Source: Lunularia cruciata
Lineage: Eukaryota; Streptophyta; Marchantiopsida; Lunulariales; Lunulariaceae
NCBI GenBank assembly: GCA_948567375.1
Contig: OX419755.1
Coordinates: 64,856,944 to 64,920,943, forward strand
Length of the DNA: 64,000 bases
Direction: 5' to 3'
The notes beneath the pieces are model-generated. The model had not been told where the DNA came from. It made no database searches and saw only the letters and a program-made list of their open reading frames with translations. Numbering within the stretch: the stretch's first letter is position 1; each line of letters opens with the position of its first letter. Both the position numbers and the translations under genes were made by a program. This document shows, piece after piece, positions 14,906 through 64,000 of this stretch.

Positions 14906-14983
14906 ATTGTGCTTCTACAATCTGTAGATCAGTTTTTGTAGTAGCCAGAATCTTTGGCCAAAATTCAGGGTCAATCTATACCT

Positions 14984-15621: not shown

Positions 15622-15639
15622 TACTTGAATGCCTTCTAC

Positions 15640-16850: not shown

Positions 16851-16859
16851 TTAGGATCT

Positions 16860-18645: not shown

Positions 18646-18646
18646 C

Positions 18647-18657
18647 TCTGATACCAT
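18647..18657 (-). other. E2 primer binding site (initiator Met tRNA)
   Basis: On the minus strand, TGGTATCAGAG directly follows the 5' LTR. It matches the 3' end of plant initiator methionine tRNA. Confidence 0.9.
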
Positions 18658-19890: not shown

Positions 19891-19894
19891 TTTA

Positions 19895-20600: not shown

Positions 20601-20647
20601 TCATCAAGAAAGATATCTTGAAACTCATTTACCACATTCTTCAATTT

Positions 20648-21120: not shown

Positions 21121-21129
21121 ACAATCAAT

Positions 21130-22555: not shown

Positions 22556-22559
22556 CCTA

Positions 22560-22570
22560 CTCTGATACCA
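22560..22570 (-). other. E1 primer binding site (initiator Met tRNA)
   Basis: TGGTATCAGAG on the minus strand, one base from the 5' LTR end. Confidence 0.9.
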
Positions 22571-22571
22571 T

Positions 22572-40571: not shown

Positions 40572-41060
40572 TTAGACAATCTAAAGGTGAAAATTGGGTC
40601 AGTAATATCTTTAGAGGAGTTATACATGATGGTCTAAGTTGGTTGGATAGATAAGTCACCAAAAGAGGACTTCTACTAACAAGGTAGAGGTCATAAACAC
40701 ACTTATTCAAAGCCAATTTTAGAAATCTAAACAAAATAATTAAGCCTCAAAAGTTATAATTTTACCCTCCATCCTCCTTGAAGAAGAGGTGTTGCTTTAC
40801 TTCTCCTTGGTTTGTCTCATCTAGACCTTTTCAATGGTACCATTTCCATCATGTTTTGAGCTTTCTACAAGATACAAAAGGATTTCCAAAAGATTCTCTA
40901 TGTTCAAACTTGTTTGACCAACCAATTAGGACTAAGGTTGAAATATCACCAATCTATGTATCTAATCCAAGGGTGGAGTTCTATTGGAGAGGTTCTTCTA
41001 TGCTATATTATAGATTTAGAGTGTCATCAAAGTATTGGAAAATTTCAATCTTATGTTCTT
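40572..41060 (+). repeat. Diverged LTR of the E family, plus orientation
   Basis: Reverse-complementing the E1 and E2 LTRs gives a matching order of blocks here: the AAAGGTGAAAATTGGGTCAG region, CACCAAAAGAGGACTTCTAC, the GGTACCATTTCC block, GATTCTCTATGTTCAAACTT GTTTGACCAACC and ATCCAAGGGTGGAGTTCTAT. Both ends are worn away, so it is a relic (solo LTR or truncated element) of a copy in the other orientation. Confidence 0.65.
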
Positions 41061-42842: not shown

Positions 42843-43095
42843 AAGAATGGGATGGATGGAATATATGGAACACTAAATCCACTTCCACCAAACCATTGGG
42901 ATTTTTGTGTCCAGATACTACCCAAGCATCATCTCACACAATTCATCATCTCATGCTTTGGACAAGATTTTTTGCATATGATCACCTTGTCTAAGGAATC
43001 CTTGGTGCTTCTGGTTGTAACTTATGGATAATGGTGGATGTGTTGGATTTATGTGTTAATAAATTAGATAATTGGGAATAGTGTGATAGAGTAGA

Positions 43096-43545
43096 TGTCA
43101 CGCCATTTGTAGTTCCGCATCTAGATGCTCGGACACTGGAGTTCTAGTGATAGTAGTTAGAGTTATTCTAGCTGTTTCTCAGGGACTACTTTCCGACGGT
43201 TAGATTTTGTGTTTGGGGTACTGACTTCACGGTGGGGCCCACCGTCACTTTGCACCGTTTGCACCGTCAAGTGTGCCGTCAGCGGGACTATTAGGGTTTC
43301 AGGGCTAGCTCGAGTCCAGGGAGTATAGTTTTGAAGTGAGCTCCAGAGAGCTCACTTCTCTGATGTTGAGCCTTCGAGTTCCTGGCTATGGTGGACAGAG
43401 GCCGGCGAGCGTCACCTGGATTCTCTATGCTTGAGTGGGTGTGGCTTGACTGTAATCAGTGCCCAGTTGTTGGCAGTTTATAGAGTGACAGATCAAGTAC
43501 TGATCTGAGTTGAGTTGAGTTGAGAGTGTTAAGCAATCTGATTAC
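43096..43545 (+). repeat. A1 left terminal repeat
   Basis: Homologous to 53,840-54,287 and 63,195-63,642. It contains the GTGGGGCCCACCG near-palindrome (about 43,230) present in all copies. Confidence 0.8.
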
Positions 43546-44846
43546 ATCAGAGAAGTGAAGTCAGGGGGAAATCGGGTGCAGGAACGTTGAGTGTTGGTGG
43601 TATCTCCAAGCTCGGTGGATCGTGGTAGCTCGATTCAGGTTCTGTGTTTCCCTAGTGTGCAGAAGCTCGTGTAGTTGATGCAAATTTGGCAGTCAGGCGG
43701 ACGGTGAGCGGAAGCGCTGGCCAAATTTCGAGCAAAGAAGGAGCAATTTTCGAGCAGTGTTGTGATTTTGAGCTCAGGAGGTGAAGGCAGGACCAATTTG
43801 CTGCGAGTTGGGCTCAGAAAGTGAAATTGAAGGTGGAGTTGGAAAGCTCTTCTCATGAAATTGTGATTTGGAAAAACCCGTTTTGTCAATTTGGCTCGAG
43901 TGGAAAGTTAGCGGGGGATTTGGCGGACATCCATCTTTAGGGTTTACGTCAGATTTTACGTCAGATTTACGTCAGATTTTGGGCCAGAATTGGAGGAGTT
44001 TCACTGTTTGGCCAGATTTGGAGAAGTTTCGCTAGTTTGGAGGAGTTTTGTAGATTTGGAGAAGTTTCGCCAATTTTGGAGGAGGTTCGAAGTGGCAGCA
44101 AGAAAGGCCTCATTTGGCTGAATTTTGGCATTTCGAGGCTTTGAGGCATACGGCTGTGGGCTATGAGAGGCTACGAAGGCCTAGAAGGGCCAGCAAGCCA
44201 GCTTGCTGGCGTGAGGCTAGCTAGTTTAGTGTAGATCTTGGTCATTGGTTGGCAAAATCTGCCTTTCTTGCTAGATTAAGCGCAACAAGGTTTGACCCCT
44301 AGATCTCTTGTTCCTAGACTGGTGCCCTAGCCAATTGGTCCACCCTCACTTGTTGTCATAGTGACTGTGCCAATGTTATCTATACACATGTAGCTTTGGC
44401 TAGGAGAGGCAGTTTGATCCCATTCTTGGTGATCCTGGTAGCTTAGGACTTAGATACGAACTACTCTTATGTCAAATGCCAAATGGTGGCAGAGTCAGTC
44501 CCGTGTTGTGTTATGAGATGGAGGGTTTTCGTTTAGATTTCTTGTGATTGGATCCCCTCCATTCTCTGCTTCCTGTTTGTGCACCATGTTTGTGTGAGGT
44601 GCCTTGACTTTTGAGCGTTGGTGCTCTGGTGTGCTCTCGGTGGTGAGGCTGGAGTGATGACCAGTCAGACTACCTTTGTTTCTCTCCGGTGAAGCAGGAA
44701 GTGATGACCTGCAGACCGTGAGAGTGCGTGTTATGATGGCAGGTTACAGGTTGCCCTTCCCCTAGTGTAGTTATCTCGGTTAGAGTTACATTAGTGGGTG
44801 GTGTCTAGTTGGTGTTGGCACTTGGTGGGGCACTTGCAGTTGCGAC
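43546..44846 (+). other. A1 untranslated leader
   Basis: About 1.3 kb with no long open frame. It holds repeats of TTTGGAGAAGTTTCGC type (about 43,985-44,095), ACGTCAGATTTT repeats (43,945-43,980) and a perfect hairpin GCCAGCAAGC-CA-GCTTGCTGGC at 44,189-44,210. A TGGTGGCAGAG at 44,484 resembles a primer site. Confidence 0.6.
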
Positions 44847-46069
44847 TTGCGGTTGCAGTTGGTGGTTCGGGTTTGCTATTGCAGTTACATGGTCACGACG
44901 GAGTTCTTTGGAGATTCCAGAGGAGTTAGCCCTGCAGTACGCAGTGGGTTTACTCGGAGTGGTACTCGGTATCAGCCTGTATCTCAGGTCCCAGTGAGGG
45001 AGGAGATTGACTCTGAGTTGGAGTTTGACACAGGAGCTGATTCAGTTGAGAGTGCACTTGGTGTGTCCGCACCGTTGTTGTGGGACATGGACGAGATTTA
45101 TGGGGCCTCCAAAGGCCCTAGGCATTACTCTGGTATAGTGGGTACTATTGAGTTGGATGATTTCATCCAGGAGTTCGATAGTTGGTGTGATCTGCAGCAG
45201 ATGTGGAACCCGACTTTGTTCACACCCTTCATGGCATGGAAGGGGTTGTTTCAGCACTTGGAGGGTCCACCGATGGACGACTACCATGAGTTCAGGAGAG
45301 CTCATTTGGAGGAGATTGAGTTATGGAGACAATATTGGTCTCCACACTATGTCTCCATCACTTCAGGTTCGGTGGCCAGGAGTAGGTCGGTTGTACCTAC
45401 GAGTTCTAGCTCGAGTAGTGTTGGTGGAGCTAGTGGAGGTGCACTAGCTGGAGATAGTGCTACTACGAGTGGAGGTACCGCTGCAGGAGGTGGTGTGGTA
45501 CCGGGGTTTAACCCCATGGTGGAGTTCTTCCTATGTTTGAGGCAGAACTACCAAGGAGTGCGGACTGACAAGCTGAGGAGCTTGCAAGAGTTCCAGCGGA
45601 AGGCTGGAGAGAGCCTACGCGAGGCATACACTCGCATGAGGCGGCTGATCAGTTTCACTCAGGGAGTTATTGAGGCCCAAGCAGTCCAGTTTTGGTATGG
45701 GATACTGGATAGGGAGTTGCGATGTAGAGTTCGTGATGCTACGTTGTTGCAGGCTACTTTGCCCACTTTGGCAGTAGTCTTTGGTTTGGCTGAGCGTATT
45801 GAGCTCAACATGGTGGAGGAGAGAGTGGTGACATCTGGATTTGGTAGGGAGACCTCATCCATGGTTGTGACTTCTTCTAGAGTGCAGCAGAGTGCACCAT
45901 GCCCAGTTGGTTTTTGAGGACAGGGTGGACAGCCCAGATCCTATGGAGCGAGTGGAGAGCCTAGTGGAGTTAGACCCTTACCCTCATTTTCAGGTCAGCA
46001 GCAGCCAGTGAGTGGTGGTGTTGCTTGTTGGACTTGTGGTGGACCTCACCATAGGAGAGAGTGTACGCC
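44847..46069 (+). CDS. A1 gag, open for 356 codons then one in-frame TGA before the zinc knuckle
   Basis: Capsid-type protein of a Ty3/gypsy element. The first frame, 44,847-45,917, is uninterrupted. It has an acidic N-terminus, the conserved WDMDEIYGASKGPRHYSG and ELDDFIQEFDSWCDL, a Ser/Gly-rich linker at about residues 185-215, and the retrotransposon gag core LQEFQRKAGESLREAYTRMR at about residues 247-266. A TGA at 45,915-45,917 follows VGF. The same frame then continues GQGGQPRSYG to a knuckle ACWTCGGPHHRRECT. The full copy B has a TGA at the identical place. It was chosen to start at the ATG at 44,847; the later ATG at 44,889 (MVTTEFFGDSRG) is an equally good start because homology begins there. 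Confidence 0.8.
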
Positions 46070-47345: not shown

Positions 47346-47761
47346 GACCCAATGATAATTCAAGTATAACACTAAGGTAGGAATTTCTTATTAGATTGTT
47401 TGGCAGCTTTGAGTAAGACACCTAAGGATAGTCAATCCCAAGGTAGAAATTTTGTAAAGAAAGCAACCATAGAGCAAGCTTTGGAAGGAGAGAAGCCCCT
47501 AGATGGGAAGTTTTTCAGGAAAGCTCTATAAAGAAAGCAACCATGGAGCAAGCTTTGAAGGAAAAGAAGTCTTAAAATGGGAAGTTTGTCAGGAAAGTAG
47601 CCATAAAGCAAGCCATGAAGGAAGATAAGTCTTTAGAGGGGAAGTTTGTTAGTGAAGCAGCTATAGAGCAAGCTTTGGAGGAAGATAAGTCTATTTTTGT
47701 AGTGTGGATCAATTTGATTGCACAAGGATAATGTGAGGAGAGTCAAGAGCCTCATCGAGTA

Positions 47762-48440
47762 ATGGTTGATCACATAGTTCAAGAGTTTGCATATGTGTTT
47801 CTAGATGATCTGCCAAAGGGATTACACTTTGATTGTGGTATGCCCCTCAAGATTGAGTTAGTACTAGGAAGTACTCCAATGAGTAGACCAATCTATCAGC
47901 TCTCACTAAAGGAGTTGGAAGAGTTGCAAACAACACTTATGGAGTTGTTGGAGAAGGATTTCATACAACATAGTACATTTGCTTGGAAAACACCGGTACT
48001 ATTTGTTCCAAAGAAAGATGGGGGACTATATTTTTGTATTGATTACCATGGGCTTAATAAATAGACAATGAAGAATGCATACCCTTTGCTCCAAATTGAT
48101 GACTTGCTTGATCAATTGAGTGGAGCATGATATTTTTCCAAGCTGGATCTTTGCAGTGGCTACTAGAAAATCCCATTGATAAGGAGGATGTACAAAAGAA
48201 TACCCTTCACACAAGGTATGGACATTTTGAGTGGAGAGTTTTACCTTTTGGGCTCACTAATGCTCTAGAAGTCTTCATGGATCAGATGCAACCAGTATTG
48301 GATGGATTGTTGGATTGGTACATAGTGATGTTCTTGGATGATATCACAATCTTTAGCAAGATAGAGATAGAAAACATGTAAAGCATGTGCAAGAAGTCCT
48401 AAGATAACTAAGATAGTGAAATTTTTATTGCAAGAAGGCA
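47762..48440 (+). pseudogene. Element C reverse transcriptase
   Basis: The entry FVPKKDGGLYFCIDYHGLNK is at about 48,003, then YPLLQIDDLLDQL, then a frameshifted palm. WRVLPFGLTNALEVFMDQM and YIVMFLDDITIFSK (F-L-D-D box) are at 48,230-48,360. Stops and shifts inactivate it. Confidence 0.85.
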
Positions 48441-49140
48441 AAGAGTGCCTTTTGGTAAAAGGGAGTTACCTTCTTGGGTTCACAAGATCTCATCAGAGTG
48501 GATCAAGATAGAAGAGGAGAAAATCAAAACCATCACTGATTGGCCTACTCTAAAGGATGCTAGCAAAGTACGGGCATTTAATAGATTGGCTAGTTTTTAC
48601 CAATGGTTCATCCACAACTATGCCCATGTGGCCGCACCATTGATCCATCTCTTTGAGAAGAACTTGAGCTTTCAATGGACCAACAAGCACAAAGAAGCAT
48701 TCCAAAAGTTGAAACATATGGTGTCTTCAAGACCAAATTTTCAACCATATGATCCTCAACTACCATGTGTGGTTGATTTTGATGCTTCTAACTTTGCAAT
48801 TAGAGCCATTTTGCAATAGGAATTCATAGATGGATTACATTCTATTGCTTTTATGTCTCATAGACAAAATACAACAATAAGGAATTACTCTACTCAAGAT
48901 TGAGAACAACCAGCAATGATATATGCCACTAAGGTATGGAGGCATTATCTCTTGGAGAAACAAGTGGTCATGCAAACTAATCACAAGCCCTTGTTGCAAA
49001 TATTATATTTGGAACACATGAAGAGTTGACATCATCAATAGGAGGAACAACTACAATTGTTTGACATCAAACTTGAGTAAAAACTTGGTTGGTTCCATGT
49101 CATCCTTGATGCCCTATCATGACGAATTGATTTGAAGTCT
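48441..49140 (+). pseudogene. Element C RT connection and RNase H
   Basis: 48,445-48,819 carries KVRAFNRLASFYQWFIHNYA, the conserved end of RT. FQPYDPQLPCVVDFDASNFA follows as the start of RNase H. A QVVMQTNHKPLLQ-like block near 48,965-49,000 marks its second half. Confidence 0.82.
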
Positions 49141-49916: not shown

Positions 49917-50318
49917 GCAACATATACTTGATTCTTCACTCAAGCACTCCTTCACAATCAAGCACTAATTATAAACAAAGTCACACCCACTCTAACTAAG
50001 AGACTCCAAGTGATGCCTACCACTCCTTGTCTACCATAGCCAGGAACTCAAAGGCTCAACAAGAAGTGAGCTCTTTGGAGAAACACTTCAAAGGTATACC
50101 TTCTACTCAACCTATGTTTCTAACCCTAATAGCAGTGCTAATGGTACATTTGATGGTGCAAATGGTGCAAGTGATGGTGGGTCTCACCATGTGATAAGTA
50201 ACCCTAACATGAAATTAGATGACCAACAAGTAGTCTATGAGTAACTACAAAAATACCTATGACTACCAACACTACCACTCTAGCATCCAAGCAAACTAGC
50301 TTTGGCACTACAAATGTC
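49917..50318 (-). repeat. A3 terminal repeat (A-type), truncated
   Basis: On the minus strand it starts TGTCATGACATTTGTAG and matches the first 400 or so bases of the B terminal repeat, with clear divergence. It ends against element C integrase. Confidence 0.75.
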
Positions 50319-50425
50319 ATGACAATTTTTGTGCATATATACATTGCTTTATAACATACATCATTATCAATATCATACACGATAAAATTACAACTCACAC
50401 ATAAGTTGTATATGAGTTTTAAAGT
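50319..50425 (-). repeat. A3 B-type repeat with polypurine tract
   Basis: On the minus strand, AGGGGGAAA precedes TTGTGGCACTTTA and about 100 bases homologous to 63,087-63,194. The A-type repeat begins directly after it. Confidence 0.7.
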
Positions 50426-50659
50426 GCCACAATTTCCCCCTATTTGGCAACAAGGCCTTTCTAATTCCAAATAGCCATTTACTCCAAGTATGTAATATGC
50501 CCTATGGTAGGCAAAGATCAAGAGGCCAAGTGCTATCAAGTCCCATCATTAGTTGCTAATGTGCAATCTATACCAACCACATAAAGGATGAACTAGCTAT
50601 GAGTCAAGTATATCTAGAGCATAATCATTGTCCTTGAGGAACCACTATGAAGGCAAGAG

Positions 50660-50902
50660 TCAAACATGCCATATGCCATCCTTCAAACAACTATCACACA
50701 CCAACATAGTAGCAGCTCCACCAAAAGAGCCACATAACATACACCTCAAACCTACACATACAAGTGCCAAGCTTAGGTTTATAGTGCCATCAATGTTTGG
50801 GAGGTGGCATAACACACAATAACACACGTGATCCTTCCAAAAAACACCATCATGTCCTTCCAACATGAGGACTCTAAAAGATAAAACCTTGTAGACTCTC
50901 AA
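50660..50902 (-). pseudogene. A3 integrase tail and PHD finger remnant
   Basis: On the minus strand it reads LRCMLCGSFGGAATMLVCDS and then a frame break before WHV. It matches the PHD finger of copy B residue for residue around the first four cysteines. The text before it (LEGHDGVFWKDHV) is the end of integrase. Confidence 0.82.
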
Positions 50903-51117
50903 GATAGTGTGACCTATAGTAACATCAAGTATTGTTGATGCAATCTACTATAGATATACATAGTCACTTGGATGAAATTGACATATCAAGGATCTATAAC
51001 CTCCTCCTCAAATAGTAGCATATTTTAAGATATCCCTATGTTGAGCAATCATTAAGTTCTCAAAGTCCATCAACATCACTCTCCAAAAGATCTCTACCTG
51101 TTGAGAACATGCGCTAC

Positions 51118-51342
51118 CTATTGAGAACATATGTATAGATTATCCAAGTCCAAAACTATAGTAGCATCACAATGAATGGCTAAAGGTAAATTTGGATCTT
51201 GTCCAAAAAGTAGAAAGTAAGGAGAGAAGGATGCTAAGGAGGCTTTCCGGCTGAATTGATAATCCATAGCTAAGGAGGCTTTTTGGATTGATAGCCTCAA
51301 AAATATACATATACATATGTACATATAGAAAGGTAGATGCAT
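51118..51342 (-). pseudogene. A3 integrase fragment
   Basis: QFSRKASLASFSPYFLLFGQ and then DPNLPLAI match the region after the catalytic Glu in copy B (62,268-62,350). Confidence 0.82.
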
Positions 51343-52166
51343 GCCAACCTAACACCATCTCCTTATCAGTCTCACCATGCCAATGTGTTCCAATCTGATC
51401 TTGTTGGCTAGAACATGGGTTCTACTCAACCTATTTGCATCATGGTTCACCACTCCAAGTCTATGAATAACCATGAAATCATTCTCTTGTAAAATTAGAG
51501 TCCATCATGCAAGCTTCCTTGAAAGTTTGTTGGACTCTATCAACCACTTTAATGGTTAATGATTAGTGACAAGAGTGAAGGGATACCAAATAGGTAACAT
51601 TAGAAATGTACTACTGCACATATTACTACCAAGCACTCTCTCTCATATGAACTATATGTTGCCTCTATTGAATTGTTGGAATGGCTAGCATAAACCACCA
51701 CAAACTTCTTCTGCTCATCATCTAGTTGGGTGAGCAATGCTCCAAACCCCAACATACTCCAATCAATATGAACCTAGAATGGTCATCCTCTAATTTATAT
51801 CTTAAGAATGGTTTTTACCAATACTAAATGACCTTTTATCCTACTAAGAAAACAATTGGTATCATAAGAAAAAGTAGGCGTATAGCAGAGCAATTATTAT
51901 ATGAGAAAATGTCAACCTGTCCTTGAGCTTTATAAAAGCTCTCTCCTACTCATCTCCCCAACACCCCTCATGTGTAAACTTGATCAACTTTTTCAAGGCC
52001 TTGACAATAGCAAAAAATCCTCTAATATATTGATGATAGAAGTTCAACAACCCAAGGAATGCTTGCACTTTGCTCACATCCATAGGCTAATGAATATGTG
52101 CAATGGTCTCCACCTTGGTCTTCTTGAATACCAAGTCCTCCATGGTAGATAGTGTGACCCAAATGT

Positions 52167-52760
52167 TCAACCTACTTGTAGAAGAATACACTTCCCAAGA
52201 TGTAATTTGAGTCTTTGAACCCTTAACCTCTCAATTACTTCCAACAAATGGCTCTCATGCTTCTCCAAAGAAGTGTTATAAACCAAAATATTATCAATAT
52301 AACATTGAGTAAAATTCAATCCTACTAAGATCCTATCCATGACACTTTGGAACTTTAACCCAAATGGTAAGAACCTCCATTGATATAATACATCCTTGCC
52401 GTGAGGATAAATAGCCCAAAATCTTCTCTTGGACTTTTCCTCCTCCTTGATCAGCAATTGATGATACCTTGCTCAAAAATCCAAAGTATTGAAGACCTTT
52501 GTATGCCCAATCACATCAAACATCTCCTCTAGTGTTTGCATGGCATACCAATTAGCCCTACTCTATTGGTTGATAAGATGGTAATCTCCGCACATCCACC
52601 TAGCTATGTAGTTACCATGCATATCTTTCTTAACTAGGATCATTGTGGCTAAAGCATACTCTCCATGTGAAATCTCCACCAAACTAGCCTCAAAAGGTCT
52701 CTACTCCGGCTCTAAATCAATGCTTTCTCCATGTGACTATATCTACATAGACATCAAAAA
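52167..52760 (-). pseudogene. A3 reverse transcriptase remnant
   Basis: GEISHGEYALATMILVKKDM, then CGDYHLINQ, lie at 52,560-52,700. FWAIYPHGKDVLYQWRFLPF follows, with YIDNILVYN at 52,167-52,457, where the Y-I-D-D box has become Y-I-D-N. Confidence 0.83.
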
Positions 52761-53270
52761 ACCAATGTATTACTAGGAAGCTCAATATAAATATTTGGTC
52801 CTTTTAGAGCACCAAAATCTTTCATATTGAAGGTAAAAGAACTTGTGTAGCTCCTCAAGAACCTCCAAACTCTCCGTCTTTCTCCTCTTGTAAGCTTGGG
52901 TTCAATTTTTGGCTGCCAAGTATCCTCTACAACTAATGTAGGAGTGGAAGATGTACTAATTGGCTGCTACACTAGGCACTTGAAAGCAATAATGTCATGC
53001 CTCCAACCACTAGAGTTCCTAACCTCATTGTAGAAAACTCTCTCTTCTCTAGCTGCAAGCTCCATTCATCATCTAGCTGGATCCCAAGTAGACCAAAAAG
53101 TGTAACCCAAGTAGACAACATTCACTTAGATGGACCCCAAGTACACCACTCTCACTAATAGGTCTTGTTTATGTCCTAATAATACCTTTTGCACTTGGTC
53201 TATTGCTTCTAGCATATGCCAAAATTGTCTTGATATGCATAGAGCTCACAAGTTCAAAATGGTGAGGCCT

Positions 53271-53839
53271 ATTAGTGGATCTTATGCTACTCTACAAAGC
53301 CAAGGTTCACAATCCAAGTCAAATAATTCAAGTCTATAGCTTGACCTAATGCCTAGATGCCTCTAACATTATTATAAAAACAATAATATTAGTATGGAAA
53401 CCCATCACCCATTCCCTCTCATAGGCATTGTGCTCCAGCAATTGCTTTTATTGTGAGTGCCAAACAAGTCCAAGATCTCCCTTTAAAAAATCATGGGAGT
53501 TTGGGAAACTCATAAGTGTGGGAAAAGTAGCTTTGGGCTATCCAACAAGGTTCACCACTACCATAGGTGACATTTCATCACTTATTAGCATTTGAGACTA
53601 GCACCCAACATCCAAAATTTTATCAATAGTAGAGTGATCTAGTCATTGAATCCCATCATAAGCACATTGTAGAAACTCTCTAAGTAAGAGGTTCATCCAC
53701 TAGAGGTGAAGAAAATGACCCTATGATCCCACTTGAGCAACATCTACTAACATTGTAGGTCCCATCCAAGAATGGACCTAACGTGTACTTGCCACCACCA
53801 ATGAATGAGAATCACCCATCAACATGACATTTTCCATAT
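53271..53839 (-). pseudogene. A3 DNA methyltransferase, motifs VI to X
   Basis: On the minus strand, MENVMLMGDS (motif VI, Met codon at 53,835-53,837) starts at the very edge of the B insertion. A worn motif VIII lies near 53,697-53,735. SPMVVVNLVG and FPTLMSFPNSH come next, then motif IX (EREWVMGF, about 53,410-53,445). Motif X (IDLNYLTWIVNLG after a frameshift) is at about 53,290-53,360. All align in order with copy B at 58,928-59,470. It is dead, but it proves that the domain was present in another, older copy. Confidence 0.83.
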
Positions 53840-54287
53840 TGTCATGCCATTTGTAGTGCCGCGTCTAGATGCTTGGACAATGGAGTTCCAGTGATAGTAG
53901 TTAGAGTTATTCTAGCAGTTTCTCAAAGACTACTTTCCAATGATAAGATTTTGTGTTTGGGATACTGACTTCACGGTGGGGCCCACCGTCACTTTCACCG
54001 TTTGCACCATCGAGTGTGCCATCAGCGGGACCGTTAAGGTTTCAGTGCTAGCTTGAGTCTAGGGGGTATAGTTTTGAAGTGAGCTCTAAAGAGCTCACTT
54101 CTCTGATGTTGAGCCTTTGAGTTCCTGGCTATGGTGGATAGAGGCCGGCGAGCTTCACCTCGATTCTCTATGCTTGAGTGGGTGTGGCTTGACTGTAATC
54201 AGTGCCCAATTGTTGGTAGTTTATAGAATGACAGATCAAGTACTGATCTGAGTTGAATTGAGTTGAGAGTGGTAAGCAATCTGATTA
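53840..54287 (+). repeat. Copy B left terminal repeat (A1 unit)
   Basis: It starts TGTCATGCCATTTGTAG and aligns with 63,195-63,642 until CAATCTGATTA. After that the left copy goes on into the leader and the right copy goes on into a second B-type repeat. The visible repeat is therefore about 448 bp. Confidence 0.8.
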
Positions 54288-55593
54288 CATCAGAGAAGTG
54301 AAGTCAAGGGGAAATTGGGTGTAGGAACTGTGAGTGTTCGTGGTATTTCCAAGCTTGGTGGATCGTTGGTAGATCGATTCAAGTTCTGTGTTTCCCTAGT
54401 GTGTAGAAGATCATCGATTGATGCAGATTTGGCAGTTAGGCGGACAGTGTGCGGAAGCGCTGGCCAAATTTTGAGCAAAGAAGGAGCAATTTTTGAGCAG
54501 TGTTGTGATTTTGAGCTCAAGAGGTGAAGGCAAGACCAATTTGCTGCGAGTTGGGCTCAGAAAGTCAAATTGAAGGTGGAGTTGGGAAGCTCTTCTCATG
54601 AAATTGTGATTTGGATAAACCCGTTTTGTCAATTTGGCTCGAGTGGAAAGTTAGCGGGGGATTTGGCGGACAGTCATCTTTAGGGTTTATGTCAGATTTT
54701 ATGTCAGATTTTGGGCCAGATTTGGAGGAGTTTTTGCTGTTTGGCCAGATTTGGAGGAGTTTTGCTAGTTTGGAGGAGTTTCATAGATTTGGAGAAGTTT
54801 TGCCAATTTTGGAGGAGGTTTGAAGTGGCAACAAGAAAGGCCACATTTGGCTGAATTTTGGCATTTTGAGGCTTCGAGGCATAGGGCTGTGGGCTATGAG
54901 AGGCTATGAAGGCCTAGAAGAGCAAGCAAGCCAGCTTGCTGGCGTGAAGCTAGCTAGTTTAGAGTAGATCTTGGTCATTGGTTGGCAAAATCTGCCTTTC
55001 CTACTAGATTGTGCGCAATAGGGTTTGACCCCTAGATCTCTTGTTCCTAAACTAGTGCCCTAGCTAACTGGTCCACCCTCACTTGTTGTCTTAGTGATTG
55101 TGCCACTGTTATCTATACACATGTAGCTTTGGCTAGGAGAGACAGTTTGATCCCATTCTTGGTGATCCTGGAAACTTAGGACTTAGATACCAACTCCTCT
55201 TATGTCAAATGCCAAATGGTGCCAGAGTTAGTCCCGTGTTGTGTTATGGGATGGAGTGTTTTTGTTTAGATTTCTTGTGATTGGACTCCCTCCATTCTCT
55301 ACTTCTTGTTTGTGCACCATGTTTGTGTGAGGTGCCAGATTTTTGAGCGTTGGTGCTCTGGTGTGCTCTCGGTGGTGAGGCTGGAGTGATGACCAATCAG
55401 ACTACATTTGTTTCTCTCTGGTGAGGCAGGAAGTGATGACTTGCAGACCGTGAAAGTGCGTGTTATGATGGCAAGTTACAGGTTGCACTTCTCCTAGTGT
55501 AGTTATCTTGGTTAGAGTTACATTAGTGGGTGGTGCTTAGTTGGTATTGGCACTTGGTGGTGTTGGCACTTGGTGGGGTACTTGCGGTAGCAG
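54288..55593 (+). other. Copy B untranslated leader
   Basis: Colinear with 43,546-44,846. It carries four or five imperfect TTTGGAGGAGTTT units at about 54,718-54,825 and the GCAAGCCAGCTTGC hairpin near 54,925. TGGTGCCAGAG at 55,217-55,227 resembles an initiator-Met primer site with two changes. If that is the true primer site, the LTR would be about 1.37 kb and the right one would be truncated. Confidence 0.6.
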
Positions 55594-57178
55594 TTGGTAG
55601 TTTGGGTTTGCTGTTGTGGTTACTTTGTCACGACTGAGTTCTTTGGAGATTCTAGAGGAGTTAGCCCTGCAGTACGCAGTGGGTTCACTCGGAGTGGTGT
55701 TTGGTATCAGCTTGTATCTCAGGTCCCAGTGAGGGAGGAGATTGACTCTGAGTTAGAGTTTGACACAAGAGCTGATTCAGTTGAGAGTGCACTTGGTGTG
55801 TCCGCACCGTTGTTGTGGGACATGGACAAGATTTATGGGGCCTCCAAAGGCCCTAGGCGTTACTCTGGTACAATGGGTACCATTGAGTTGGATGACTTCA
55901 TCCAGGAGTTTGATAGTTGGTGTGATCTGCAGCAGATGCGGAACTCGACTTTGTTCACACCCTTCATGGCATGGAAGGGGTTGTTTCAGCATCTGGAGGG
56001 TCCGCCGATGGATGACTACCATGAGTTTAGGAGAGCTCATTTGGAGGAGATTGAGTTATGGAGACAGTATTGGTCTCCACACTATGTCTCCATCACTTCA
56101 GGCTTGGTGGCGAGGAGTAGATCGGCTGTACCCACGAGTTCTAGCTTGAGTAGTGTTGGTGGAGCTAGTGGAGGTGCACTAGTTGGAGATAGTGCTACTA
56201 TGAGTGGAGGTACAATTGTAGGAGGTGGTGTGGTATTGGGGTTTAACCCCATGGTGGAGTTCTTTCTATGTTTGAGGCAGAACTACTAGGGAGTGCGGAT
56301 TGACAAGCTGAGGAGCTTGCAAGCGGAAGGCTGGAGAGAGCCTACGCGAGGCATACACTTGCATGAGGCGGCTGATCAGTTTCACTCAGGAGGTTACTGA
56401 GACCCAGGCAGTCTAGTTTTGGTATGGGATACTGGACTGGGAGTTGTGATGTAGAGTTCGTGATGCTACGTTGTTGTAGGCTACTTTGCCCACTTTGGCA
56501 GTAGTCTTTGGTTTGGCTGAGCTTATTGAGCTCAACATGGTGGAGGAGAGAGTGGTGACATCTAGATTTGGTAGGGAGACCTCATCCACGACTGTGACTT
56601 CTTCTAGAGTGTAGCAAAGTGCACCACGCCCAGTTGGTTTTTGAGGACAGGGTGGACAGCCCAGATCCTATGGAGCGAGTGGAGGGCCTAGTGGAGTTAG
56701 ACCCTTACCTTCATTTTTGGGTCAGCAGCAGCCAGTGAGTGGTGGTGTTGCTTGTTGGACTTGTGGTGGACCTCACTATAGGAGAGAGTGTACTCGGGGC
56801 AGCGGACCTGATACCTTTGGTGCATCACAGCCAGCACAGAGGCAGTGTGAGCATTGCCACAGATTTGGTCACACTAGTGACCAGTGTTTTGACCTACACC
56901 CGGAGTTACGGAGTGGTAAGGCTGCTATGGCAAGTAGTAGAGGAGCTCCAGTTCATGGAGGACGAGGTGGTAGAGGTGGTGGTAGAGGATCCACACCTAG
57001 TAGGGGTGCAGTACCTGCCCTTACTTCTGACACAGCTATGGCTACTCGGATTGAGCAGTTGGAGCAGAGATTGGCTAGTATGGCTATTGCTTATAGGAGA
57101 TCAGATTCGGGTGCTGAGGCTTCCACTTCATATGCTGGTGATAGAGATACTTTGGACTTCATGTGTAGAGCAGCATAG
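55594..57178 (+). pseudogene. Copy B gag with two zinc knuckles
   Basis: 55,594-56,289 is open (231 codons) and closely matches the A1 gag. It then breaks at a TAG and an 8-base deletion near 56,320. 56,717-57,178 is open and carries two knuckles: CWTCGGPHYRREC (one residue short of the usual spacing) and the canonical CEHCHRFGHTSDQC. An RGG-rich segment GGRGGRGGGRG, which should bind nucleic acid, follows. A TGA at 56,642-56,644 is shared with A1. Confidence 0.82.
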
Positions 57179-57206
57179 GTAGATGCATCTGCAGCAGTGA
57201 CTAGGA

Positions 57207-58380
57207 GTGCAGTATGTGCTCCAGAGCCTAGAGGAGCATCAGTGGGAGTTGGACTCACAAAGAGGAGAGGTTGGGAGACAGGTCAGACTTCCCCAGTCTT
57301 TCATGCTATTTGAGGCATTGCAGACGACATCCATGGTTCCTAGACGTCCCAGTGCAGGTGTGGTAGGTGGTGATGGAGTACATGATGGACTACCTGCTAG
57401 TCAACCACCTGCTACTACACAGACTGAGTCTAGCATGATGTTGGGGGCGGCTCAATTGATTATGCGGCGTCCTTTGTTTTTGGCCAATGATATGTTTACA
57501 TTGGAAGTTGACCCAGCCCCAGTGTTCCCGTTGGCTACCACGTTGTGTGAGAGTAGGGAAGGTGCAGTTCCTACTACTAGAGTAGAGGTGGTTGGTAGTG
57601 GAGCTGACTTGGTTGAGGAGCATGGGATCCGTTCAGCGACCAGTGGTTTATGGCAGGTAGCAGCGGCTAGACTAGAGGAGTTGCTAGCTAGACCAGCCTT
57701 TGAGAGAGCGCGGTTTACACCTGGTGTTGTCTTATTGGATAACCAGAGGGGGATTTTTTGTTTGGTGGGACCTTCAAGGAAGGTCTATACACCACAGAGA
57801 GTCTTGTTAGACTTAGGTGCGCAGGCCCTTATGTTGGGGAAGGCTGCAGTTGTTGGTATGGAGTTACGGAAGACCGATGTGGAGAGGTGTCCATTTCAGA
57901 TCTAGACATCTCTTAGTGGTGGTTCGACACAATACATCACATGTGGAGAGCTTGTTGTCCAGGTTCAGCTTGGTCATCCGACTGATAGCTTGGTGGTGAG
58001 AGCTTAGGCTATTGTGACGATAGCTGAGTCATATGATGTGCTAGTTGGGGGAGCAGTGTTATACCCCATGGGTTTCAGCATTGACTATTGGGAGGAGATA
58101 GCCTCTTATAGACCTGGTTGGCAGTCTAGTGAGGGACGGGTATGTCGCCAACCAATACGCTTTAGTAGTGGTAGTCTTGGCTCACTACAGTCCGGGACCA
58201 TGGTAGCATCAATTTTAGCTTTCAGCGGTGCAATTACTTGGCCTGGTGAGTTGTTAGAGGGGAACGCCCATGCAGAGGATACTCTAGTACCAAAGGTGAT
58301 CACTCGGCTTTGGAGTACGAGAGGGATTGTTCCATCCACCTTGGATGTTCCATTGTGGAGTTCAGAGGAGGCATTGTAGC
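57207..58380 (+). pseudogene. Copy B aspartic protease region
   Basis: The frame starts in a long variable linker. The protease core reads VYTPQRVLLDLGAQALMLGK (about 57,780-57,840), where D-L-G-A stands for the usual D-S-G-A, a change explained by one C-to-T. ESYDVLVGGAVLYPMGFSID (about 58,026-58,085) is the flap/second-loop region. Stops are TAG at 57,903 and 58,005 and TAG at 58,377. The frame runs on without shift into the methyltransferase. Confidence 0.72.
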
Positions 58381-58394
58381 AACATGCAGATCAG

Positions 58395-59510
58395 TTGGTG
58401 CAGCAAGCTTGGAGTGGAGCCTTCGTACCATCAGGAGATGAGTGTGAGGATGAGCCTCCAAAGGCAATTGCTTTGACACCTCTGGATACCACACTCATTG
58501 CTTGGCAGTATCCAATAGAGGGGATATGCCTATTGGAGTTGTTTGGTGGGATCAGCACCGGACTAGCTACGGTGTTACAGGCGGGTATACGAGTACAGAG
58601 GTACTTATATGTAGAGAGAGATGAGACTGCTAGGTGAGTCCCTCTACATCATGTGGCACACTTGACCTATCGGTATCCGGAGTTATTACCAATGTCAACG
58701 GTCAGAGGTTACCAAAAGGCCCTACCATGAGACATTTCCTTACTAGGGACGCATGACCTAGAGAGACATGGGCTATTCACTTGGTGATTTCCGGATGGCC
58801 ATGTTAGGGACATACACGTGCTGGTAGAGGATTGGGTCTTCAGGATCCTCGTTCTGGTGTGTTTTGGGAGATGTTACGGATATTACGACATCTCCAGGTT
58901 CATCAGTCCGTTTCTCCAGCTTACCTTATGGAGAACGTTCCTTTGATGGGTGATTCTCGCACTAGAGTAGTGGCGAGTACACATCAGGTCCATTCTTGGA
59001 TGGGACTTGCTATTTTGTTAGATGCAGCCAGAGTGGGATCACGGGCTCATCGTCTTCGTCTTTGGTGGACGAACCTCTTACCCAGAGAGGTTCTACAACG
59101 TGCTTATGATGGGATTCAGTGACTTGACCACATCCTTGTTGATGATATCTTGGATGTTGAGCATCAGTCTCAGACAACGGTTGTGGCTGATAGGTCACCT
59201 ATGGTAGTGGTGAACCTAGTTGGACAGCCTAGAGCCGCATTTCCCACACTCATGAGTTTCCCAAGCTCTCATGCTTCTTGAGAGAGAGAACCTGGACTTG
59301 TTTGGGACTCACAGTTACAGCAGTTGGTGGAGCCCAATGCTGATGAGAGAGAGCGGGCGATGGGTTTTTGCACCGGTATTACCGTTGTTCTAATAGTGTT
59401 AGAGGCATCCAGGCGTCAGGTGTTAGGAGAGGCTATGGACCTGAATTGTTTGACCTGGATTGTGAGCCTTGGCTTGGCAGAGCAGCGTAGGATGCGCTTG
59501 ATAGGCATCA
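58395..59510 (+). pseudogene. Copy B cytosine-C5 DNA methyltransferase domain
   Basis: An enzyme of the DNMT/Dcm superfamily that would transfer a methyl group from SAM to cytosine C5. Motifs in order: I, LLELFGGISTG (58,530-58,562, SAM binding), then YLYVERDETAR (motif II-like); IV, ISGWPC followed by a TAG (catalytic Cys codon 58,802-58,804); GLGLQDPRSGVFWEMLRIL; VI, MENVP (58,928-58,942); VIII, RAHRLRLWWTNL (59,042-59,077); a recognition region; IX, DERERAMGF (about 59,342-59,368); X, RRQVLGEAMDLN (59,411-59,446). Every motif needed for catalysis can be read. One frameshift at about 58,735-58,780 separates motif I from the rest, and stops lie at 58,635, 58,728, 58,754, 58,805, 59,120 and 59,279. 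Motif VIII looks DNMT3-like, while the PC-x-G...GL-x-D-x-RS block also recalls bacterial enzymes, so the subfamily is open. From motif IV on it is in frame with RT. Confidence 0.88.
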
Positions 59511-59806
59511 CCACTCAGACACTTGTGAGCCCTGTGCCTATCGAGACGATTCAGGCACATGCTGGGGGGGATGGACCGAGTGGACATGGTATTCTTGGGA
59601 CATATCCAGTAGCTACTAGGGAGAGTGGTCTACTTGGAGTCCATCCAAGTGAGCGTGGGCTACTTGGATTACACCCTTGGTCCACATGGAATGCAGCTAG
59701 AGGACGTGTGGAGCTTGCAGCCAGAGTGGAGGGAGTTTTTCACACAGAGGTTGGGACCTCTAGTGGTCGAGAGCATGACACTATTGCTCCCAAGGGCCTA
59801 GTGTAG

Positions 59807-60670
59807 CAGTCAGTCAGTACGTCTTCCACTCCTACTATAGTTACAGAGGATACTTGGGAGCCAGATCTTGGACCCAAGCTTACTGGAGAGGAAAGACGGA
59901 GGGTTTGGAGGTTCTTGAGGAGTCACATGAGTTGTTTTGCCTTCAGTATGAAGGATTTGGGTGCTCTGAAGGGACCTGGTATATGGATTGAGCTGATTAG
60001 TGACACACCAGTTTTCCGATGTCCTTATTGATATAGTGATATGGAGAGGACATTGATTCAAAGCCGGAGTAGTGACCTTTTTGAGGCTGGTTTGGTGGAG
60101 ATTTCACATGGAGAGTATGCATCAGCGATAGTGATGCCATCCAAGAAGGATACGCATGGCAACTATACAAATAGGCGGATGTGTGGAGATTATCGTCCTA
60201 TCAACCAACAGACCAAGGCTGATCGATATGCCATGCCTACACCTGAGGAGATTTTTGATGCGATTGGGCATGCAAAGGTCTTCAGTACTTTGGATCTTTG
60301 AGCGGGATATCATCAATTGCCGATCAGGGAGGAGGATAAGTCCAAGATAGCATTTTGGGCTATTGATCCTCATGGCAAGGATGTGTTATATCAGTGGAGG
60401 TTCTTATCATTTGGGTTGAAGAACGCTCCTGCTGAGTTCTTGAGGGTCATGGATAGGACCCTAGCTGGATTGGATTTTGCTCGGTGCTATATTGATGACA
60501 TTTTGGTTTATAGCACTACTGTGGAGGAGCATGAGAGACAATTGTTGGAGGTGTTTGAGAGGTTGAGATCTCATGGACTCAAATTACATCCTGGGAAGTG
60601 TAGGTTCTTCCACGAGCAGGTTGAGTATTTGGGTCACACTATCTACCCCAGAGGACTTGGTGTTTAGCAG
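59807..60670 (+). pseudogene. Copy B reverse transcriptase
   Basis: GEERRRVWRFLRSHMSCFAF starts the domain. HGEYASAIVMPSKKD, MCGDYRPINQQTKADRYAMP, TLDL, QWRFLSFGLKNAPAEFLRVM and the active site CYIDDILVYS (about 60,485-60,514, a Y-I-D-D box) follow, all in one frame. Stops at 60,029 (TGA), 60,299 (TGA) and 60,665 (TAG) sit where close relatives would carry Arg or Gln. The same frame continues upstream through the methyltransferase. Confidence 0.9.
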
Positions 60671-61340
60671 ACCAAGGTAGAGGCTATTGCACGTATTCCT
60701 CGGCCTACGGATGTGAGCAGAGTGCGAGCATTCCTTGGGTTGGTGAACTTCTATCGCCGCTATGTTAGAGGATTTAGTGCCATTGCCAAGGCCTTGACAA
60801 AGCAGACCAAGCTTATACAGGAGTGGTGTTGGGGAGATGAGCAGGAGAGAGCTTTTGTAGAGCTCAAGGAGAGGTTGACATCTGCTCCTATTTTGAGGAG
60901 ACCAATCAGGGGACGACCATTTCAGGTTCACACTGATTGGAGTATGTTGGGGCTTGGAGCGGTGCTCACCCAACATGATGATGAGGAGAAGGATTTTGTG
61001 GTGGCCTATGCTAGTTGCTCCAACAATTTAGCGGAGGCAAAGTATAGTTCATATGAGGGAGAGTACTTGGCAGCAGTTTGGGCAGTAGCACATTTCCAAT
61101 GTTACCTATTTGGTAACCCCTTCACTTTCATCACTAATCATCAGCCACTGAAGTGGTTGATGGAGTCCAACAAGCTTTCAAGGAAGCTTGCACGATGGGC
61201 TCTGATTTTACAGGAGTATGATTTCACGGTTGTTCATAGACCTGGAGTGGTGAACCGTGATGCAGATGGGTTGAGTAGAAACCCATGTCCGAGCCAACAG
61301 GATCAGACCGGAGCACGTTGGCATGGTGAGACAGATGAGG
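60671..61340 (+). pseudogene. Copy B RT thumb/connection and RNase H
   Basis: RVRAFLGLVNFYRRYVRGFS leads into RNase H: FQVHTDWSMLGLGAVLTQHD, KYSSYEGEYLAAVWAVAHFQ and FTFITNHQPLKWLMES. HRPGVVNRDADGLSR is the standard linker to integrase. This 314-codon frame (60,713-61,657) has no internal stop, so this part of pol is the best preserved. Confidence 0.9.
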
Positions 61341-62777
61341 AGATGGTGCCAGGTTGGCATGCATCAGCCTTTCTGTGTATATTTGTAGAGGCTTTGGTGG
61401 TATCTCTCTCAGTGCATACAAGAGGAGTTATTGAGGTCACAGATTCAAAGAGTGAAGATATTGGTACAGTTCAACGAGACATTCATGATGATGTCTTAGT
61501 GATGGACTATCTTTGCACTGGTGTTGTGGGTGGCACAATTGTGGCCAAGGAGAGAGACCGTGTTCTTCAGCAAGCCAGACGGTTCAAATTGGAGGGTAGA
61601 CACCTTTTGCATGTTTGGGAGGATGGTAGAGTGCGAGTAGTACCACTTCCATCATAGAGACCACAGTTGGTATGTCATGCTCATGAGGAGCTAGGACATT
61701 TTGGAGTAAAGCATACATATAGCTTACTCCATAGTCATTATTGGTGGCTCGGTATGCAGACCAAGGTACAGCAATTTGTTGCCAGATGTGTGGTTTGTGA
61801 CTTAGTTAGAGCATCATTCAATGCTCCTACGCCATAGTTACACCCATTACCTATCATGGGATTGGGTTACCGTTGGAGTTTGGACTTTGCTGGACCTTTA
61901 CTGCTGACTGTGAGACATCATCGGTATGTTTTGGTGATGGTGGAGCACTTCTCCAAGTGGATTGAGTTGGTGGCACTTCCTGACAAGTCTAGTGAAGGGA
62001 CAGCTTACTCGTTCGTGGATTGAGTTCTTAGTTATTTTGGTGCACCAGCTGAGGTTTTGACTGATCAAGGTATAGAGTTCTTGGGGGAGTTTCAAGTCTT
62101 GTGTGACAAGGCTTTGATTGATCATTGTACTACATCCTGAGATCACCCTGAGGCAGATGGCTTAGTAGAGAGTGGTTCAGACGGTGAAGAGAGGATTGCG
62201 AAAGTATGATTTGCAGAGAGGCCACTTGGGAGATTGGGATCTCCAGTTACCTTGGTTGGCCATGGGCTATCGGTTCAGCCGGCAAGCCTCCTTAGCATCC
62301 TTCTCTCCATACTTTCTACTCTATGGACGAGATCCAGATTTACCTGCAGCCATTCGTCGAGATGCTACTGTAGTTTTGGACTTGGATGACCCTGATGTAT
62401 GGATGAGCGCATGTTCTCAGCGGGCAGAGATCTTTCAGAGAGTGATGCCGATGGCCTTTGAGAACTTGGCGATTGCTCAGCATAGAGATACTTTACGCTA
62501 TGCTACCATTCGAGGAGGAGGTTATAGACCCTCGATCCGTCGATTTCATCCAGGCGACTATGTATATCTACAGCAGACAGCACCGACGACACTTGATGTT
62601 TCTACGGGCCGCACTATCTTGAGAGTGCGTGAGGTTTTGCCATCTGGAGTCCTTGTGTTAGAAGGACGTGATGGTGTTGTTTGGAAGGATCATGTGCGCA
62701 ATTGTGCGCCATGCCACCTTCCAAACATTGATGGTACTATGGACCCAAGCTTGGCACTTGTACGTGCAGGCTTGAGG
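61341..62777 (+). pseudogene. Copy B DDE integrase
   Basis: Zinc-binding H-H-C-C: AHEELGHFGVKHTYSLLHSH and CVVC (61,676-61,800). The core has Asp in RWSLDFAGPL (about 61,880), Asp in LTDQGIEF (about 62,060) and Glu in EADGLVE (62,168-62,170), a complete D,D,E triad. A 2-base deletion after the Glu shifts the frame; the C-terminal part is open at 62,172-62,894 (QLPWLAMGYRFSRQASLASF, FHPGDYVYLQQTA, LEGRDGVVWKDHV). Stops are TAG at 61,655 and 61,835 and TGA at 62,021 and 62,138. There is no chromodomain; the tail runs into a PHD finger. Confidence 0.88.
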
Positions 62778-62918
62778 TGTATGTTATGTGGCTCTTCTGG
62801 TGGAGCTGCTACTATGTTAGTGTGTGATAGCTGTTCGAGAGGATGGCATATGGCATGTATGACTCCTCCCCTCATGGTGGTTCCTCAGGGATAGTGGTTA
62901 TGTCCTAGATGTACTTGA
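62778..62918 (+). pseudogene. Copy B PHD finger at the integrase C-terminus
   Basis: CMLCGSSGGAATMLVCDSC, then SRGWHMAC, then WLCPRC give the C4-H-C3 pattern of a PHD zinc finger, including the W two residues before the last C pair. PHD fingers usually read histone H3 tails. One TAG (62,892-62,894) interrupts the loop before the last pair. The natural stop is TGA at 62,916. The same finger is present in A3. The position matches that of chromodomains in chromoviruses. Confidence 0.87.
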
Positions 62919-63086
62919 ACTATAGCTAGTTCATTCTTTATATGGTATAGATTGCAAACAGGCGACTAATGATGGGGCTCCATAGCACCTGGCCTCCTGA
63001 TCTTTGCCCATTAGAGGGTATACCATATACTTAGAGTAGATGGCTATCTGGAGTTAGAGGGACCTAACCGCCATCTAGGGGGGTGA
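62919..63086 (+). other. Copy B 3' untranslated end with polypurine tract
   Basis: Non-coding. It ends in AGGGGGGTGA at about 63,076-63,085, a good polypurine primer, directly before the first B-type repeat. Confidence 0.65.
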
Positions 63087-63194
63087 TTGTGGCACTTTAG
63101 ATTTTATGTATGACTTATGTGTGAGTTGTGCTTCTATAGTGTATGATATTGACAGCAATGTATGTTGTGTAGCAATGTATGTACGCACGATAGC
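63087..63194 (+). repeat. B-type terminal repeat, unit B1
   Basis: TTGTGGCACTTTAGA to GCACGATAGC, about 108 bp. It recurs at 63,643-63,739 and, inverted, at 50,319-50,425. Confidence 0.78.
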
Positions 63195-63642
63195 TGTCAC
63201 GCCATTTGTAGTGCCGCGTCTAGATGCTTGGACATTAGAGTTCCAGTGATAGTAGTTAGAGTTATTCTAGCAGTTTCTCAAAGACTACTTTCTGACGGTT
63301 AGATTTTGTGTTCGGGGTACTGACTTCACGGTGGGGCCCACCGTCACTTTGCACCGTTTTCACCATCGAGTGTGCCGTCAGTAGGACCGTTAGGGTTTCA
63401 GTGCTAGCTTGAGTCCAGGGGGTATAGTTTTGAAGTGAGCTCCAGAGAGCTCACTTCTCTGATGTTGAGCCTTCGAGTTCCTGGCTATGGTGGATAGAGG
63501 CCAGCGATCGTCACCTGGATTCTCTATGCTTGAGTGGGTGTGGCTTGACTGTAATCAGTGCCTAGTTGTTGGCAGTTTATAGAATGATAGATCAAGTACT
63601 GATCTGAGTTGAGTTGAGTTGAGAGTGGTAAGCAATCTGATT
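63195..63642 (+). repeat. A-type terminal repeat, unit A2
   Basis: Starts TGTCACGCCATTTG and matches 53,840-54,287 to the end. It is followed at once by a second B-type repeat and not by leader sequence. Confidence 0.82.
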
Positions 63643-63739
63643 ATTGTGGCACTTTAGAGTCTATGTGTGAGTTGTGCTTCTATAGTGTATGATGTTGACA
63701 GTGATGTATGTTGTGTAGCAATGTATATATGCACAACAA
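63643..63739 (+). repeat. B-type terminal repeat, unit B2, right end of copy B
   Basis: TTGTGGCACTTTAGA to GCACAACAA. It ends at the same point as B1, and A3 methyltransferase sequence follows straight after. Compared with B1 it lacks about ten bases near its start. Confidence 0.78.
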
Positions 63740-64000
63740 CATTATTAGATGGAGAAATGGACCAATGAACCTAAAGTTGTCATAGTATATGTAACATCTC
63801 CCAAAACATACAAGTGTGGAGATTGCATAACTTGAATAACTAGCCTTAAACTTGACCAACATGGTGTTGTGTTGTGGTTTGCATAACCTATGAAAAAGTA
63901 AACTAGTGTGGTTTATCTTCACAAAGATGGAGTAGGTAGTATGATGGATCCCACGGTTGAGCTATTGCCATGTATGCAATCTATGTGCATTTAAGTGATT
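63740..64000 (-). pseudogene. A3 methyltransferase, continuation beyond copy B
   Basis: Plus-strand 63,745-63,815 aligns with the reverse complement of copy B at about 58,858-58,925 (for example GTAACATCTCCCAAAACA in both). That is the stretch between motifs IV and VI. Beyond about 63,825 the similarity fades, and I cannot follow A3 to the end of the window. Confidence 0.65.

Follow-up and report, generated by a model that had tools for sequence, protein, structure and literature searches.

Plants silence mobile DNA by cytosine methylation, and a mobile element in the genome of Lunularia cruciata seems to encode that very mark. The element lies in a 64,000-nucleotide stretch of contig OX419755.1 (the window) and raises the question of what a cytosine-C5 methyltransferase would do inside a retrotransposon.

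The methyltransferase domain and the element that carries it

The domain lies at 58395-59492, which aligns with residues 2-368 of P0002, a homologue with the domain complete. Motif I was read by eye at 58521-58562, and direct reading placed motif IV (GWPC) at 58793-58804, motif VI (ENV) at 58928-58939, motif VIII at about 59051-59080 and ERERAMGF at about 59343-59366. The C5 methyltransferase order from I to X is unrearranged, and the motif IV Cys, the ENV of motif VI and the RxR of motif VIII are all present. The coordinates and motif order claimed in a preliminary description of this DNA are thus borne out by the homologue and by direct reading, and the window translations again show the motif I piece in the protease frame and motif IV onward in the frame of reverse transcriptase (RT). 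With stops masked as X, the motif IV-X frame matched the Pfam profile PF00145 at 1e-6 (28.8 bits, cut-off 22), so that the profile search suggested in that description returned a C5 methyltransferase. The open piece 58808-59122 by itself scored below the cut-off (1.4e-3, 18.6 bits), the motif I piece alone gave zero Pfam matches, and NCBIfam dcm matched the masked frame at 7e-6, under that model's own cut-off. The masked frame also matched 205 proteins, the best among those listed at 69% identity and 98% coverage. Profile ranking put the domain nearer DNMT3 than DRM, DNMT1-type or DNMT2 chains. A structure model from alignment A3 (pLDDT 90.6) was used for fold comparison, a first model from alignment A2 having been discarded (pLDDT 47); the best fold match was DNMT3, which by profile and fold is far ahead of DNMT2. 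Judged by profile and modelled fold, the domain is a DNMT3-type cytosine-C5 methyltransferase, with predicted activity on DNA.

The surrounding element, which we call element B, is an old broken copy spanning 53840-63738 on the plus strand. It is nested inside the methyltransferase gene of another family member, copy C (boundaries 53838-53840 and 63738-63760). The features are as follows; copy C, the UAG, the split repeats and the terminal PHD finger go beyond the preliminary description.

53836-53839 (no strand): left target-site duplication ATAT, with ACAT on the right at 63739-63742 (3 of 4 letters match)
53840-54287 (+): repeat A1, the 5' end of element B (TGTCA...), not followed by a B repeat
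55591-57178 (+): Gag region with CCHC knuckles, frame broken (translation read by eye)
57800-57830 (+): retropepsin active-site motif by reading, LLDLGAQ here; two young copies read LLDSGAQ or LLDSGVQ
58395-59492 (+): C5 methyltransferase domain, DNMT3-type, decayed by one frameshift and in-frame stops (profile, homologue and motif matches)
59804-59812 (+): conserved UAG in a type-I readthrough context, TAG CAG TCA in this copy
60032-60667 (+): reverse transcriptase (PF00078, 8.3e-30)
60668-61649 (+): RNase H and linker (PF17917, 1.2e-31)
61650-62570 (+): broken integrase, with zinc-binding region and DDE core; approximate limits, offset from copy L028, whose homologous frame matches PF17921 and PF00665
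62778-62915 (+): C-terminal PHD finger (PF00628, 3.2e-7)
63086-63194 (+): repeat B1 and B1-A2 junction GATAGCTGTC, directly after the G-rich tract AGGGGGGTGA
63195-63643 (+): repeat A2, 93.5% identical to A1 (K2P 0.066)
63644-63738 (+): repeat B2, the 3' end of the element (..ACAACA)
49954-53838 (-): copy C, same family, with the C-terminal methyltransferase half, the UAG and RT onward; 79% identical to B in the methyltransferase-RT part
43092-46066 (+): copy A, with only repeat A1, leader and gag; 92% identical to B

Between A1 and gag, the leaders of copies B and A hold short tandem arrays (54686-54822 and 43943-44089; units of 11-12, 19 and 28-29 bp). The window also contains a host gene for a UTP30/RSL1D1-like ribosomal L1 domain protein (4156-4914, minus strand), whose best named matches come from two species of Riccia, R. 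fluitans (81%) and R. sorocarpa (79%), and from Calypogeia fissa (79 and 77%); the match in Marchantia paleacea, at 62%, falls under a lycophyte's 67%. Riccia and Calypogeia are liverworts, and this one gene makes the host very probably a liverwort too. By reading, 3251-3760 (plus strand) looks like the last part of an ABCG transporter gene. A different repeat family, in which gypsy-type fragments of RT and integrase were read, occupies 10411-23332 and 40579-40978 in several copies (main block 81-91% alike, with a 156-bp internal tandem repeat), and an additional gypsy-like RT fragment was read at 47455-48819, with 60-74 bp tandem repeats upstream.

An abundant family in the genome

We searched the genome (565.8 Mb in 74 contigs) with P0002. 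From 13,362 first-look places 111 were scored, and all 111 matched the query at 72-74% identity; the domain is stop-free in 66 of them. Twenty of the 111 copies were fetched whole, chosen mostly by long open frames, so this set leans to young copies. Its methyltransferase is without a stop in 19 of 20, PCQ and ENV are retained in every one, and the RT-integrase part is interrupted by stops or shifts in most. Since young copies read the whole stretch in one frame, the frameshift in the window copy represents decay of that copy. The gypsy-type family is abundant and recently active, and the methyltransferase is one of its regular domains.

A conserved UAG after the methyltransferase

Young copies have Gag, protease and methyltransferase in a single open frame (Gag-PR-MTase) that ends in TAG CAG CCA, with a stop-to-stop length of 1,428 aa in most full-length copies and up to 1,448. 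RT, RNase H, integrase and PHD finger follow downstream of the UAG, in phase with this frame. The sequence TAG CAG CCA was found in all 20 fetched copies and in copy C. Genome-wide, the 17 letters after the stop occur 876 times, preceded by TAG in 858 cases and by a triplet with another first letter in 6, a count of copies that share recent ancestry and are not independent. UAG-CAR-YYA is described as the type-I readthrough motif of tobamoviruses (PMC3542737), and the context in this family fits it. The preliminary description had made the domain part of the pol polyprotein. It is indeed integral to a multi-copy gypsy-type element, and its place is between protease and RT; the host, as had been supposed, is a probable land plant. 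The domain does not share one uninterrupted Pol with RT, since the UAG stands between them. A UAG in a readthrough context that ends the Gag-PR-MTase frame before RT means that the methyltransferase may be made at Gag levels.

It is somewhat unlikely that the UAG is no readthrough site and simply closes the structural frame, with RT reached through splicing, through re-initiation or from a separate RNA. Eight predicted proteins fuse the methyltransferase with RT or RNase H (P0035 from Riccia; P0124, P0126, P0129, P0131 and P0133 from Marchantia; P0142 from Sphagnum; P0164 from Closterium), and elements of a second layout, described below, have no stop at that place. The fusions, known as predicted proteins alone, could reflect splicing, annotation around the stop, or absence of the stop. 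By eye, the proteins P0118 (Sphagnum jensenii), P0015 (Calypogeia) and P0121, P0122 and P0127 (Marchantia) end at about the same place as the Lunularia frame. What speaks for readthrough is that copies differing by about 21% still have CAR-YYA as the six letters 3' of the UAG (CAG CCA, CAG TCA) and that the RT frame runs on in phase.

Split repeats with integrase-type ends

The repeats of the element are arranged A1-coding-B1-A2-B2, with A of 449 bp and B of about 106 bp. Of the 20 fetched copies, 17 could be checked at both ends (L009, L021 and L024 lack a terminal repeat or have one cut in the stretch), and all 17, like the window copy, show A-coding-B-A-B. Exact 4-bp target duplications flank TG..CA ends in 16 of these 17 (one of the four letters differs in the window copy); L013 has none because a further A follows its B2. 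The two B repeats of a copy agree at 102-105 of 105 sites; for the window copy the figure is 85 of 91. The B1-A2 junction is the palindrome GACAGCTGTC in 13 of 17 copies and corresponds to two element ends joined, with GC between CA and TG; the G-rich tract upstream of B1 reads AGGGGGGCGA in most copies. Exact junction counts across the genome were 560 for B1-A2, 1,546 for A1-coding and 2,156 for A2-B2, with 0 for backward controls; these counts may differ through decay of CpG-bearing patterns and through partial copies. No primer-binding site was identified; a 7-letter resemblance to the initiator-tRNA site, located after A1, is not taken as one.

A classical LTR element has two like LTRs, and here the 5' end is A alone and the 3' end B-A-B; the TG..CA ends and a target duplication of 4-6 bp are nevertheless those of the classical type. 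As read from its repeats and domains, the element is not of the plain LTR type and combines DIRS-like split repeats with a DDE integrase. Membership in DIRS was considered and rejected, since the frames scanned (L028, P0143, P0147, P0162) gave no family match to a tyrosine recombinase and matched the rve integrase instead.

We suggest that reverse transcription would start at the G-rich tract and yield a B-A-coding-B-A cDNA, the ends of which would join into a circular or end-joined form. Integrase would then cut the palindromic B-A junction and leave the integrated form A-coding-B-A-B; the permuted repeats would be explained because the cut falls at the B-A junction of circular or end-joined cDNA. 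There is a precedent in the prototype foamy virus integrase, which is reported to cut palindromic LTR-LTR junctions, leaving 2-nt 5' overhangs (PMC1180852).

The same layout could arise by a DIRS-like pathway, through a circle and recombination at an internal complementary region, and it is identical to that of DIRS. We regard this as unlikely, given the DDE integrase family matches, the lack of a tyrosine recombinase in the scanned frames, and the 4-bp target duplications with TG..CA ends of the family; DIRS elements are not known to have either of the latter. Cutting of the palindrome by integrase is the route that we propose.

Age, constraint and decay

The distance between A1 and A2 in 17 copies was 0.0065-0.035 (median 0.0135), and 0.066 in element B. 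If rates of 5e-9 to 1.3e-8 are assumed, the median copy is about 0.5-1.4 million years old and element B about 2.5-6.6 million. Values of pN/pS among copies were 0.34 for the methyltransferase (n=20), 0.42 for RT (n=19), 0.51 for gag (n=17), 0.53 for protease (n=17) and 0.56 for the tail (n=20), and carry no significance test because the copies share recent ancestry. Identity to Marchantia proteins was 60-69% for the methyltransferase (5 proteins), 66 and 76% for RT (2), 75-80% for the RNase H part (3), 52-62% for gag (3) and 44-53% for protease plus linker (5); the Gag region of a young copy was 59-62% identical to P0121 and P0122. Taken together, these two measures indicate that the methyltransferase is held tighter than gag and protease, and somewhat less tightly than or like RT. 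It is apparently under constraint.

Decay was followed in ORF1 by comparing old copy B with L011, which gave 146 C>T/G>A changes, 52 T>C/A>G changes and 39 transversions. C>T rates there were 0.143 at CG, 0.148 at CHG and 0.025 at CHH, and the excess of CG and CHG over CHH was about 6-fold in ORF1 and about 8-13-fold in RT-IN. The pattern is as expected for DNA that would have been methylated. Two pairs of young copies showed no C>T excess (17 vs 20; 21 vs 41), the direction being arbitrary in such pairs.

This decay bears on the possibility that the enzyme mainly marks or restrains: it would methylate the site of insertion, or other copies in trans, and so lower activity to a tolerable level. 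C-to-T decay in copy B is strongest at CG and CHG, as in methylated DNA, and the integrase end carries a PHD finger. The decay context is silent on which enzyme did the methylating, and plant elements without such an enzyme are, as is generally known, also methylated and decay alike; we hold this role to be doubtful.

A proposed function

The reading that we favour, with a probability of roughly 0.6, joins these observations as follows. Translation would mostly end at the UAG and give Gag-PR-MTase at structural-protein levels, and a small readthrough fraction would give the full Gag-Pol. Because Gag-PR-MTase would be made at such levels, the enzyme may be packaged in the particle and act on new cDNA, which it would methylate de novo, probably at CG, before integration. 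Integrase would cut the B-A junction, and the PHD finger may read a histone tail and so influence the choice of integration site. Since its cDNA would already be methylated, a new copy would enter the genome resembling silent host DNA. Within this scheme, packaging with Gag and methylation of element cDNA before integration is the most likely role of the enzyme.

One published result counts against this function: the Klebsormidium gypsy enzyme, the closest known, gave no methylation in yeast, an outcome that its authors call 'inconclusive', whereas DIRS enzymes methylated CG in the same kind of assay (PMC5890265). That silence on yeast DNA would also suit an enzyme whose substrate is RNA, or element RNA inside the particle in a DNMT2-like use, instead of cDNA, and de Mendoza et al. 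raised RNA methylation for their LINE enzyme (PMC5890265). With DNMT3 far above DNMT2 by profile and fold, we consider an RNA substrate decidedly improbable and keep to methylation of cDNA.

Relatives and domain orders

Protein searches returned 205 matches, 120 of them listed, and a second search gave 47 matches from 8,000 candidates scored. Among the matches listed were proteins of Sphagnum, Marchantia polymorpha, Marchantia paleacea, Riccia sorocarpa, Calypogeia fissa and Closterium sp. NIES-53, and many further relatives were metagenome proteins; none named K. nitens stood among the 120 listed of the 205 or among the listed matches of the second search. In the 47 long matches the methyltransferase lies 3' of the protease in 24 and 3' of RNase H in 19; three more read methyltransferase-integrase-PHD with nothing detected upstream, and one has the methyltransferase before RT with protease undetected. 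The split of 24 to 19 defines two main layouts. In the second, found in metagenomic relatives, the methyltransferase lies between RNase H and integrase. Second-layout proteins (P0143-P0163, P0165) often have GWECQ in motif IV instead of GWPCQ, and some relatives of this layout have altered letters after EN or before the motif IV Cys. A more distant element protein, P0167 (31% identity), has the order methyltransferase-RT-RNase H-integrase.

The PHD finger is of the C4HC3 type, complete in six young copies, with matches in 16 homologous proteins. It was seen in 15 of 22 second-layout proteins (19 plus the three just mentioned); all 24 first-layout proteins end before it, and within the first layout it was seen only in the window's own genome.

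In a tree of 137 columns, 44 element rows stand apart from host DNMT3-like and DRM rows (support 91/98); the tree fixes neither its root nor how the two domain orders are related, and does not tell single from repeated capture. When viral_contigs was scanned with P0003 and genome_contigs with P0001, no viral or prokaryotic relative was confirmed. Retroelements do trap host genes, as is generally known, and the preliminary description had allowed for a host gene fragment caught once, in the window insertion; that reading is rejected as having next to no probability, given a stop-free domain in 66 of 111 scored copies, the same domain neighbourhood in Marchantia, Riccia, Sphagnum and Closterium proteins, and a tree that leaves the host DNMT3-like exons (L051) and DRM genes outside the element rows.

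More tentatively, and as a possibility that we do not favour, the family may belong to a widespread green-lineage class of gypsy elements, with a DNMT3 writer at Gag stoichiometry, a PHD reader on the integrase, self-methylation of cDNA, B-A cutting that gives the permuted integrated form, and a writer relocated at least once (protease/RT versus RNase H/integrase).

Comparison with known systems

The preliminary description mentioned C5 methyltransferases in algal and dinoflagellate retrotransposons, and these are indeed on record: KnitGypsy-Dnmt3 of Klebsormidium nitens has DNMT3 in Pol, DIRS-like repeats and Ka/Ks <0.2 for the domain, and Symbiodinium has DIRS and LINE elements with DNMT3 (de Mendoza et al., 2018; PMC5890265). 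Those authors proposed cDNA methylation for the DIRS case and judged the Klebsormidium gypsy case an independent capture (PMC5890265). A paper from 2025 mentions the streptophyte case as LTR Copia (PMC12344493), where PMC5890265 has Gypsy. In its available text, a paper on liverwort genomes describes bursts of Ty3/Gypsy elements in Lunularia without using the word 'methyltransferase', and the available text of PMC9033089 and PMC12477816 has nothing on the Lunularia family; the latter describes an Ectocarpus DNA transposon with a 4mC/6mA-type methyltransferase. In open-licence literature we found no land-plant report of such an element.

From its published description, the closest known element is KnitGypsy-Dnmt3, which has in common with the Lunularia family the gypsy-type domains, an intronless DNMT3-type enzyme in the coding region and DIRS-like repeats; gypsy RT, RNase H, DDE integrase and the DNMT3-type domain are all present in Lunularia. 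A difference is that the Lunularia family resides in a land plant in hundreds of copies. Its methyltransferase ends the Gag-PR frame before the UAG; the DNMT3 of KnitGypsy-Dnmt3 is described as lying in Pol. For the Lunularia family we describe a UAG readthrough context, a PHD finger, TG..CA ends with 4-bp duplications and a palindromic junction; the main text of the KnitGypsy-Dnmt3 paper is without the words PHD, split and direct repeat (PMC5890265). SymbioDIRS-Dnmt3 of dinoflagellates likewise has DNMT3 in a retrotransposon, the A-coding-B-A-B layout and two coexisting domain orders (PMC5890265), but is described with DIRS RT and a tyrosine recombinase where the Lunularia family has gypsy RT and a DDE integrase. 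With prototype foamy virus integrase (PMC1180852) the family shares the fused-end palindrome, the cutting being proposed for Lunularia from sequence alone. Animal DNMT3A and DNMT3B are about 20-27% identical to the family methyltransferase in alignments; their ADD and PWWP domains are absent from the Pfam matches of the window pieces and P0122, and the family has a PHD finger at its integrase end in their place.

The combination of split repeats with a DDE integrase raises a concrete question about the origin of retroelement cDNA ends. The family is of further interest because its function is testable in Marchantia: an apparently constrained, predicted de novo methyltransferase in liverwort and moss elements, in hundreds of copies, makes the algal and dinoflagellate puzzle testable in Marchantia polymorpha. 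As far as the literature searched shows, the kind of element is already known, and what is new is the land-plant family, the readthrough context after a Gag-linked methyltransferase, the PHD finger, the integrase-type ends with their palindrome, and the two domain orders.
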